The position numbers and the translations under genes were made by a program. A model generated the notes under the pieces. It had not been told where the DNA came from, did no database searches, and saw nothing but the letters and a program-made list of their open reading frames with translations. Below are positions 18,224 through 23,724 of a DNA stretch of 23,724 bases, piece by piece. The stretch comes from a virus: positions 1 to 23,724 of IMG/VR virus record IMGVR_UViG_3300040801_002409, one strand, 5' to 3'. Position 1 is the stretch's first letter; every line of letters begins with the position of its first letter.

Positions 18224-19512
18224 AGTGCTGCCCTCCTATCCACCCTGCGGGGTGCGGTGTGACTTTCAAAGGGTTGTGGGGTGTCGCTGCTAGCAGCATG
18301 CAACGCTAGTGCTAGTGCCCAAAACTCATCAGCGTGCCCGCGACTGTCGCGCTCAGCGTCAAAGCGAACATTGCCGGCAGGGGTGACGATTCTGCGAACG
18401 CTGTGTAAGCTCTCGCGGATGTCGTGCTGGTTGCGGGGGGTACGAATAGTGCGGTCTTCGTAGGCGCGTCGCAGCGTCAGAGCGAGGTTGCCTTTGACGT
18501 TGTTGGTGAATTTCACGCCCTCAACCTTGTAACCCCAGTCGGCGAATGCTTCTTCAGCAAGTTGCTCACCGAGGCCGGTAGCATCAATACAACAACGCTC
18601 AGCAAGGGGCATGAGGCCATAGAGCACATCACGCTGATCGGCGAACTTCACACCCTTCATGCGGATGACCTTGGCCGTCCAATAGACATCACCAACCTTT
18701 TCCAGTACCCATATCACGCTCAAATCGCGGTGACGTCCTACGTCAAAGCCGATGTAATACTGGCGATCGGCAAACAACTGGCTGTCAATCGCTGCCGCGT
18801 CGTCTTCTGCTGAGATGAGCATTTCGTACGTCAGGTAGGCGGTGTTCTCCTCCAAAAATTCCAGGAGATACTCTTGCTGCCACGCCTCAGGGTCGTTTAA
18901 ACCCAAGCGCAACTCTTCAGGGTCAACCTCCAACCCATCTCGTACAGCGTCGTAAATGTCAACGCGGTGCTTATTCCACACATCCGTCTGCCAAAGCTCA
19001 TAAAACTTATTGCTCTTGCCGTTGGGCGTGCTCACCACGCGGATTTTCAAGTCACTACGGCGAGTAATCGACGGGAACAACGCCGCCCATATTGCCCGCG
19101 AGTCGTCGTGGAAGGCGAATTCGTCAAGCACAACATTCGAGGTATAACCACGTGCTGTACGCGGGTTCGCAGGTAGAAAAATCAAACGGCTACCGTTGTG
19201 AAGTTGAATTTTGAGCTGTGTGAAAGTCGTGCCGTCCCCATGGCGAAACGTGTCGGTATCCTCTTCGATCTGGTTGGCGGCGTAGTGAATGGCGTCAAGG
19301 TGCACTTTGACCTTTTCAGCCAGTTCTAACGCTTGCCGTTCACCCGCCGAGAGAAATACCCAGTTGCTTTGGGCTTCGACTACATCCAAGCCAGACTCGA
19401 GCGTTGTCGTGAAACTCTTACCCGTTTGACGTGACCACATGCCAATCTTGAAGCGAGACGTGTCCTGAATGTACCGCCGCTGATAGGGCAGTAAAATCCC
19501 GCCCTCAGACAT
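18220..19512 (-). CDS. Terminase large subunit (Mu gp28-like)
   Basis: 430 aa. ATG at 19512 overlaps the HU gene stop (TGATG). ATPase: Walker A SRQTGKS (27-33), Walker B VVLDEF (127-132, D130 and E131), and the coupling motif VVSTPNG (159-165). Nuclease: IGFDVGRHRD (D257, D263), CCIDATGLGEQ (D310) and GHADEFWALALALHA (D395), the acids expected of the RNase H-like packaging nuclease. Every key residue is present, so the enzyme should be active. It pumps DNA into the procapsid through the portal encoded next door. The overall type is that of Mu-like phages. Confidence 0.95.
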   Translation of the reverse strand: MSEGGILLPYQRRYIQDTSRFKIGMWSRQTGKSFTTTLESGLDVVEAQSNWVFLSAGERQALELAEKVKVHLDAIHYAANQIEEDTDTFRHGDGTTFTQLKIQLHNGSRLIFLPANPRTARGYTSNVVLDEFAFHDDSRAIWAALFPSITRRSDLKIRVVSTPNGKSNKFYELWQTDVWNKHRVDIYDAVRDGLEVDPEELRLGLNDPEAWQQEYLLEFLEENTAYLTYEMLISAEDDAAAIDSQLFADRQYYIGFDVGRHRDLSVIWVLEKVGDVYWTAKVIRMKGVKFADQRDVLYGLMPLAERCCIDATGLGEQLAEEAFADWGYKVEGVKFTNNVKGNLALTLRRAYEDRTIRTPRNQHDIRESLHSVRRIVTPAGNVRFDAERDSRGHADEFWALALALHAASSDTPQPFESHTAPRRVDRRAAL

Positions 19513-19814
19513 CAGTACGGCGTTTTCTCGCAGGCTTCCTTGAAGGCTTTGCCGGCTTTGAAGGCAGGGTAGTCACTCGCTGGAATTTTGATGCGCTCAG
19601 TCGTGCCAGGTTTGACCCCGCTGCGCTCTTTGCGGCGGCGTAGCTCAAATGTCCCAAACCCCGTCAACGCCACACTGTCACCTTGGGACACGGCACTCTG
19701 GATTTCCCCCAAAAAGCTGTCAATGACGCTCTTGGTGTGGGCTTTGGTGATGCCAACTTCAGCAGAAATCGAATCAACCAAGTCGGCTTTGCTAATGCGT
19801 TTGCTCGTGCTCAT
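19512..19814 (-). CDS. HU-family DNA-binding protein
   Basis: 100 aa. ATG at 19814 overlaps the upstream stop (ATGA) and has AGGAGG before it. It is a full-length HU/IHF protein: helical dimerisation half (SKADLVDSISAEVGITKAHT), then the signature ALTGFGTFELRRRKERSG (GFGTF at 52-56), the DNA-bending arm with VKPGT (P69), and FKAGKAFKEA at the end. HU-like proteins bend DNA non-specifically. Finding it between the small- and large-terminase-type genes suggests a role in the packaging substrate, but a general nucleoid or regulatory role cannot be excluded. Confidence 0.93.
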   Translation of the reverse strand: MSTSKRISKADLVDSISAEVGITKAHTKSVIDSFLGEIQSAVSQGDSVALTGFGTFELRRRKERSGVKPGTTERIKIPASDYPAFKAGKAFKEACEKTPY

Positions 19815-20404: not shown

Positions 20405-20676
20405 GATTGCCCCTTCTCCAACAGCCAAAACAGCACCCAGATGATGAAAATATCGCCCACCAACATGATGAGCGATATCCAAAACAGTGAGCGCAGCGGC
20501 ACGTGCCTCGAGCGAGAAATACTAGAAATCGTCCGCTGCAATTCACTCAAAGACTCATCGAGCAGCTCAAAACGAAACCGCATCGACAGTCCAAACGTCT
20601 TCAGGGTGTCTTCAAAAGCATCCATGCGCCTGTCAGTACGGCGGCGATCGTATTGCTCCTTGTCCTCCGGTGGCAT
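20401..20676 (-). CDS. Small coiled-coil protein with C-terminal membrane helix
   Basis: 91 aa. ATG at 20676 follows two bases after the upstream stop; no strong ribosome site, so coupling is likely. The N-terminal half is charged helix (DKEQYDRRRTDRRMDAFEDT, then LDESLSELQRTIS). Residues ~62-86 form one membrane helix (SLFWISLIMLVGDIFIIWVL). The small Mu genes upstream of gp27 include membrane/coiled-coil proteins (gp25, DUF2730) but with the opposite order, so homology is not claimed. It might be a holin-like or structural accessory protein. Function unknown. Confidence 0.6.
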   Translation of the reverse strand: MPPEDKEQYDRRRTDRRMDAFEDTLKTFGLSMRFRFELLDESLSELQRTISSISRSRHVPLRSLFWISLIMLVGDIFIIWVLFWLLEKGQS

Positions 20677-22924: not shown

Positions 22925-22952
22925 AAAAGGAAAGCCGCCCGTTTAGGACGGC
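22925..22952 (-). terminator. Hairpin and U-run upstream of the acidic small gene
   Basis: Minus-strand GCCGTCC, loop TAAAC, GGGCGGC (7 bp, one wobble that pairs only in minus RNA), followed by TTTCCTTTT and then directly GGAGG of the next gene's ribosome site. It looks like a rho-independent terminator for transcripts coming from the right. Confidence 0.6.
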
Positions 22953-23154: not shown

Positions 23155-23311
23155 GCTTGGGTAAAGGGTCTTTTTCTGCGTCTATGCTCTGATAAAGCTC
23201 CTGACCTAAGCGCATAGCATCAACAACTTCGGCGGCGACATCCTGCACAGAGTCGCCGCTTATTGTTGTTTCGAGGTACATCCATTTCACTATGACGGTA
23301 ACGTTAGCCAC
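23111..23311 (-). CDS. Small hypothetical protein
   Basis: 66 aa from a GTG at 23311 with GGAGGGAG nine bases upstream. The N-terminus has two strands (NVTVIVKWMYLETTISGDS), then an amphipathic helix (VQDVAAEVVDAMRLGQELYQ) and a charged end. Strand-strand-helix with a D-S-V-x-D-V-A-A-E-V turn resembles many small phage proteins of unknown function. It is the first minus-strand gene after the right-edge control region and is preceded by a hairpin and U-run, so it may be expressed separately from the late operon. Confidence 0.65.
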   Translation of the reverse strand: MANVTVIVKWMYLETTISGDSVQDVAAEVVDAMRLGQELYQSIDAEKDPLPKLTDLVAKYRKPSQP

Positions 23312-23328
23312 GGCTTACAACTCCCTCC

Positions 23329-23355
23329 AAACAAAAACACCGCCCGCAGACGGTG
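23329..23355 (-). terminator. Hairpin and U-run upstream of the 66-aa gene
   Basis: Minus-strand CACCGTC, loop TGCG, GGCGGTG (7 bp, one wobble pairing only in minus RNA) followed by TTTTTGTTT and then GGAGGGAG, the ribosome site of the next gene. It is built like the hairpin at 22925-22952 (shared CCGTC and GGGCGG words). Confidence 0.6.
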
Positions 23356-23368
23356 AAGAGTTTTAGTA

Positions 23369-23397
23369 TTGACAGCTTTATAACGGTGTGTTAAATT
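23369..23397 (+). promoter_or_regulatory. Rightward sigma-70-type promoter
   Basis: TTGACA (23369-23374), 17-bp spacer, TAAATT (23392-23397). The -35 is a perfect consensus with ideal spacing and the -10 matches 4 of 6. Transcription should start about 23404-23406, exactly where the long inverted repeat begins. A second, weaker candidate (TTGACT 23403-23408, 16 bp, TATAGC) follows. Confidence 0.55.
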
Positions 23398-23402
23398 CAA
23401 CC

Positions 23403-23546
23403 TTGACTAGACCACGGGCAGCTTTATAGCTCGACACAAAGGATTGATGGCTTACACTTTCCCCATCAAACCCTCACATATTTCTCTCATAAGAGCGTAT
23501 AATGCTTACGCCCCCTGTGTTTGTGTCGATGTCGTGGTCTAGTCAA
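23403..23546 (+). repeat. Nested inverted repeat, candidate structured RNA
   Basis: Outer arms TTGACTAGACCACG (23403-23416) and CGTGGTCTAGTCAA (23533-23546) are a perfect 14-bp inverted repeat. Inside them TCGACACAAA (23431-23440) and TTTGTGTCGA (23520-23529) are a perfect 10-bp pair in the same order. Further in, GGATTGATGG (23441-23450) pairs with CCATCAAACC (23463-23472), 9 of 10. Two small hairpins follow (CTCT/AGAG at 23484-23495; GCGTA/TACGC at 23495-23511). The whole would fold as a closed, multi-branched RNA of ~144 nt. A perfect TATAAT (23498-23503) without a good -35 lies inside. Confidence 0.8.
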
Positions 23547-23570
23547 CTCGCCATCCCACCAGGGGGCTTT
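23510..23570 (+). terminator. GC-rich stem competing with the inverted repeat, weak terminator-like
   Basis: GCCCCCTG (23510-23517) and CAGGGGGC (23560-23567) are a perfect 8-bp inverted repeat with a 42-nt loop, followed by TTT. Its left arm lies inside the loop of the long inverted repeat and its right arm outside, so the two cannot both form except as a pseudoknot. The T-run is short, so termination is uncertain. Confidence 0.35.
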
Positions 23571-23595
23571 GCTATTGCTTAGGAAGGAGCTTTTT

Positions 23596-23658
23596 GTGTA
23601 TCCGCCCCCTAAGTACGGGACAAAAGCTGAATACAGAAAAAAAGGTCGTCAGCTCTGA
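23596..23658 (+). CDS. Possible 20-aa leader peptide
   Basis: GTG at 23596 with AAGGAG six bases upstream encodes MYPPPKYGTKAEYRKKGRQL and stops at 23656-23658. It follows the structured region downstream of the rightward promoter. It could be a leader peptide, the start of a gene broken by a frameshift (a frame one base away stays open to the right edge), or chance. No family is recognised. Confidence 0.3.
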   Translation: MYPPPKYGTKAEYRKKGRQL

Positions 23659-23698
23659 AAGCTAGGTTTTTGAGCAGATGTCTGAGTTGGTCTAAGCC

Positions 23699-23724
23699 GT
23701 GGCGAAAAAAAGATTTCTCACGCC
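23699..23724 (+). CDS. Possible gene start cut by the right edge
   Basis: GTG at 23699 opens a frame reading MAKKRFLT before the window ends. It has no clear ribosome site and only eight codons are visible. It is listed because the upstream promoter points at it. Very uncertain. Confidence 0.15.

Follow-up and report, generated by a model that had tools for sequence, protein, structure and literature searches.

Does the nested inverted repeat at positions 23403–23546, which begins where a predicted promoter would start transcription, specify a structured phage RNA? The window (the whole stretch of DNA analysed, 23,724 bases) is the complete IMG/VR contig. We propose that it does: the element would be a structured RNA of the phage that starts at the base of its own stem, either as a leader or as a small RNA, a reading that we hold at slightly less than an even bet.

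The phage and its host

The minus-strand genes of the contig form a Mu-like phage set (Terminase_6 large subunit, Portal_Mu, Phage_Mu_F, a Gp27-like protein, an HU-like protein and an M15 peptidase endolysin). The nearest terminases are those of Meiothermus Mu-like prophages (59–61% identity), and the annotated phages nearest by terminase include the Mu-like Alteromonadaceae phage B23, Pasteurella phage AFS-2018a and Pseudomonas phage B3. The HU-like protein is 54–58% identical to Deinococcota HU proteins; based on the similarities of the terminase and HU-like genes, our guess is that the host is of a Deinococcota type. The HU-like DNA-binding protein gene (19512–19814) lies within the late operon, with the Gp27-like gene on one side and the terminase large subunit gene on the other, and no close relatives of the endolysin and two small neighbour proteins were found in IMG/VR. 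Two leftward genes have a GC-rich terminator-like hairpin and T run directly before their RBS (22934–22952 and 23338–23355).

Nested inverted repeats

The element and its parts are as follows.

23403–23546, plus strand: entire self-folding element, 144 nt; probably a structured RNA, with only the promoter favouring this strand
23403–23416, plus strand: left arm of the outer inverted repeat, TTGACTAGACCACG, 14 nt, 100% complementary to the right arm
23533–23546, plus strand: right arm of the outer inverted repeat, CGTGGTCTAGTCAA, 14 nt, 100% complementary to the left arm
23431–23440, plus strand: left arm of the inner inverted repeat, TCGACACAAA, 10 nt, 100%
23520–23529, plus strand: right arm of the inner inverted repeat, TTTGTGTCGA, 10 nt, 100%
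23441–23472, plus strand: third hairpin, GGATTGATGG/CCATCAAACC (arms 23441–23450/23463–23472), 90%
23421–23431, plus strand: small side hairpin AGCUUUAUAGC between the outer and inner stems, from the fold
23495–23511, plus strand: terminal hairpin GCGTA/TACGC, from the fold; the minus-strand form is longer, with three G-U pairs

Each of the three repeats described beforehand (14 bp, 10 bp and a third, imperfect one) was thus located, and together they go beyond chance: of 100 dinucleotide shuffles made from the window, 2 contained a 14-bp inverted repeat with arms 60–260 nt apart, and of 20,000 shuffled interiors 26 contained a nested one of 10 bp or more. Complementarity does not extend outward past the stem ends, which are precisely where the outer repeat stops. 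No protein family and, as had been claimed, no long frame accounts for the symmetry. There is a 31-codon frame within the element (23447–23542, plus strand; MAYTFPIKPSHISLIRAYNAYAPCVCVDVVV) which stops inside the right arm; the purine-rich stretch of this frame is unconvincing, lying too near the ATG.

Such symmetry might instead serve at the DNA level, as paired operators, as recombinase sites around an invertible segment, or as a cruciform replication or packaging site. Perfect 14-bp inverted repeats enclosing 116 bp would suit this, and the 10-mer CAGCTTTATA, repeated at 23373 and 23419, could be an operator. Inversion has no need, however, of a second repeat nested in register, no site-specific recombinase was recognised among the ten proteins scanned, the closest phages, the Meiothermus Mu-like prophages (terminase 59–61%), lack the element, and related Mu-like phages do not carry it at the corresponding place; we regard a DNA-level site as distinctly unlikely. 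The two copies of CAGCTTTATA form a perfect direct repeat (23373–23382 and 23419–23428), one lying in the promoter spacer and the other inside the element.

Folding of the element

When 23403–23546 was compared with shuffled controls, as the preliminary description had recommended, it outdid all 200 shuffles on either strand (plus strand −52.1 kcal/mol, z −5.58; minus strand −58.5 kcal/mol, z −7.25), and in a sliding 144-nt fold with GC correction it ranked first in the contig. Based on the shuffle counts, these z-scores and this rank, the 144-nt self-folding hairpin is real and is more than a chance symmetry. The element's fold was kept when 23404–23608 was folded as a single transcript. Alternate pairings are possible among GCCCCCTG (23510–23517), CAGGGGGC (23561–23568) and GCCCCCT (23603–23609); a leader switch working through them is unlikely, since GCCCCCT ends at the boundary of an insertion sequence (IS). 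After GC correction, the fold that ranks second in strength in the contig lies where two phage genes meet (20449–20592, minus strand).

Promoter register and the choice of strand

Two promoter-like sites and one terminator-like site lie to the left of the element.

23369–23397, plus strand: sigma-70-type extended −10 promoter, TTGACA-17-TGTTAAATT (TG-T-TAAATT), by consensus match; expected start ~23404
23365–23394, minus strand: weaker promoter-like site, TTAACA-18-AATACT, 9/12, by consensus match only; overlaps the plus-strand promoter and faces the phage genes that lie from 23311 leftward
23338–23355, minus strand: terminator-like hairpin and T run, 48 nt past the element, directly before the RBS of the leftward gene 23311–23111

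The final −10 base of the rightward promoter, a strong one by its sequence, is 23397, which puts +1, seven bases on, near 23404, where the outer stem has its base; the coincidence of the TTGACA-17-TAAATT start with the first base of the element, noted at the outset, therefore holds. This is the contig's only TG-extended match of at least 10/12 on either strand (0.15 expected in shuffles). Local shuffles give matches of at least 10/12, TG not being required, at a rate of ~8e-5 per position on each strand, which puts the probability of an accidental start within a few bases of the stem end near 0.001. Among the arguments for a plus-strand RNA, this register is the chief one. As the weaker leftward site overlaps the rightward promoter, the two directions could compete.

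A G-U pair next to the outer stem (G417–U532) had been taken to point to plus-strand RNA. The wobble is present on the plus strand, but the argument fails, as there are two G-U pairs in the plus fold against four in the minus fold, the minus strand folds better, and without G-U pairs the strands are about equal (−50.8 and −52.2). Of the initial proposal of a structured RNA at a promoter, then, the nested symmetry, the fold and the promoter register stand, whereas the G-U argument for its strand does not. Its description as a stable regulatory RNA fares similarly: the fold exceeds that of shuffled sequence, but the transcript has no defined 3' end, there being no intrinsic terminator 3' of the element on the plus strand (the only two sites in the area are both on the minus strand).

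The element could also be read from the minus strand, as the structured leader of a transcript that comes from the right, crosses the element and then the terminator-like hairpin (23355–23338), and enters the lysis/late genes, with the structure governing read-through. Leaders followed by a terminator are familiar from the lambda late leader and from put-type antitermination RNA. The better minus-strand fold (z −7.25) and the intrinsic-terminator-like site, 48 nt past the element and immediately ahead of the first leftward gene, speak for this reading; nevertheless no promoter-like site lies upstream on the minus strand within the window, even at 8/12, and the advantage in folding comes down to three G-U pairs in one terminal hairpin, the strands being nearly equal when G-U pairs are left out. 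We consider a minus-strand leader unlikely, though worth keeping in mind.

An IS4-family insertion at the right edge

The sequence to the right of the element ends in an insertion.

23609–23724, minus strand: terminal part of an IS4-family insertion sequence with the final 37 transposase codons, REKSFFRHGLDQLRHLLKNLAFRADDLFFCIQLLSRT, stop TAG at 23611–23609

A search of 111 Deinococcota genomes with 23300–23724 gave three matches, all in one genome and covering 23609–23716 only. These three copies (L293, L294 and L295) are of a 73–75% identical relative, have different flanks and share the end CTAAGTGGGGGACAAAAG; on the opposite strand they code for the C-terminus of an IS4-family transposase (DDE_Tnp_1; the best NCBIfam match is transpos_IS4_2, which on this fragment is below the cut-off). 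The minus strand of the contig from 23722 to 23609 translates as REKSFFRHGLDQLRHLLKNLAFRADDLFFCIQLLSRT followed by a stop, a close match to the Deinococcota copies. As the sequence from 23609 matches these differently flanked copies, the phage sequence, judged by these matches, ends at 23608 and the IS4-family insertion begins at 23609, 62 nt from the element. The end of the contig is probably due to further copies of the IS in the host genome. A 20-aa frame with a strong RBS (23596–23658) and an apparent gene at 23700 had the look of an operon behind the RNA; since 23609 onward is the IS end, we dropped them, the 20-aa frame being an artefact of the phage/IS junction.

A proposed leader or small RNA

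Building on what is seen directly, namely the symmetry, the folding, the promoter register and the IS boundary, we propose that rightward transcription from the promoter at 23369–23397 would yield a phage structured RNA, and it is from here that we infer transcription, its strand, and the stability and regulation of the product. A start at the base of the 14-bp stem would lock the 5' end in the helix that closes a branched hairpin of ~144 nt, which would act as a 5'-terminal structured leader or as a small regulatory RNA. With its 5' end closed, the transcript should be protected against 5'-end-dependent decay, and its folded part should control sequence downstream or, once processed, serve as a free RNA. 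With the rightward promoter overlapped by the weaker leftward site that faces the lysis/late genes, transcription in one direction may exclude the other. In this contig the predicted transcript would run into the IS4-family insertion after 62 nt, so its natural downstream part is cut off by the IS and missing. If transcribed, the element would place a structured RNA at the head of the lysis/late genes in a lineage of transposable phages with known relatives in Meiothermus.

Relatives and known systems

Our searches for relatives of the element gave none among phage records, plasmids or, using both-arm patterns, IMG/VR, although the searched sets may omit records very near the window. Rfam (6S, pRNA, tmRNA, riboswitches and others) gave no match at curated scores and chance matches only below them, and a single-sequence covariance model found no match over 2.2 Mb of related loci. 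Run against the 111 Deinococcota genomes, the same model again found no match, an empty answer that shows little without a positive control. There were more than 100 matches in IMG/VR to the single arm TTGACTAGACCACG, none with both arms; in the ten inspected the arm lay mostly in open reading frames (RGLVN or SWSSQ), hence we treat these as coincidence. On these sequence searches the element, which is of ordinary size, is an orphan, a single sequence without a found relative. Compared by eye, attC (integron), Xer/dif, retron and 6S readings were rejected, core features of each being missing.

Relaxing the both-arm pattern gave a sole match, L296, in coding DNA of an unrelated contig and with an ordinary fold (z −1.40), where about one would be expected by chance. 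That such a pair of arms can occur in coding DNA elsewhere, and that a repeat like the outer one, taken by itself, turns up in 2% of shuffled versions of the window, is what can be said for a symmetry that arose by chance and has no function. The nested repeat, the fold energy and the promoter register are jointly far rarer, and we judge this explanation very improbable.

The element might also be a MITE-like insertion, as are ERIC, NEMIS/Correia and the Rickettsia palindromic element (RPE), i.e., a non-coding sequence under 200 bp that is transcribed as a long stem-loop and has its transposase elsewhere (PMC2229807). It has much of this form: 144 bp within their range of 100–160 nt, non-coding, with 14-bp perfect terminal inverted repeats and a long hairpin, a GC content below that of the phage genes (46% against 53%), and an IS inserted 62 nt away. 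It differs from these repeats in lacking a target-site duplication (the flanks ATTCAACC and CTCGCCAT have no common direct repeat), in lacking TA at its termini, which are TTGAC and GTCAA, and in being apparently single: no further copy was found in the contig, in the 111 Deinococcota genomes or, with exact 12-bp arms, in 84,980 GTDB genomes or IMG/VR. In addition, its register with a promoter lying outside it would be accidental. An insertion of this kind is in our view unlikely. As MITE transcripts with long stem-loops are known to be cleaved by RNase III (PMC10969869), the element may still behave in a MITE-like way if it is transcribed.

Two known RNAs resemble the proposed transcript in outline. 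The packaging RNA of phi29 has paired 5' and 3' ends, a branched helix and a length similar to that of the element; it belongs to a different phage type, whereas the phage here has a Terminase_6/Portal_Mu machine, and the element gave no Rfam match. The ends of the element are joined by a long a1/a2-like helix, as in retron msr-msd RNA, but its inner stem continues the outer one, where the retron RNA has msr and msd as separate hairpins. As far as the contig reaches, which on the right is the IS end next to the element, no reverse transcriptase was seen. Phage small RNAs and structured 5' leaders, of which DicF is a prophage-encoded small RNA example (PMC5069750), are like the element in being non-coding, promoter-driven (by a predicted promoter in its case), strongly folded and located in a phage or prophage; the element differs in having no sequence or Rfam relationship to them and in being a candidate from sequence alone.

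We found no described phage RNA regulators for the Meiothermus group. We speculate, as a long shot, that the element could be the first member seen of an undescribed class of phage RNAs with helically closed ends, by which Mu-like phages of Deinococcota-type hosts would alternate between transcribing rightward and expressing the leftward lysis/late operon. As an orphan, its main use is to give RNA mapping, or a search of future phage genomes, a precise target. A strongly folded stretch ~3 kb upstream of the terminase in the Meiothermus prophages was considered as a counterpart and rejected as another element, its hairpins being like IS200/IS605 ends; in a Meiothermus taiwanensis Mu-like prophage (L201, 7010–7360) these IS200/IS605-type end-like hairpins lie between small genes upstream of the terminase.
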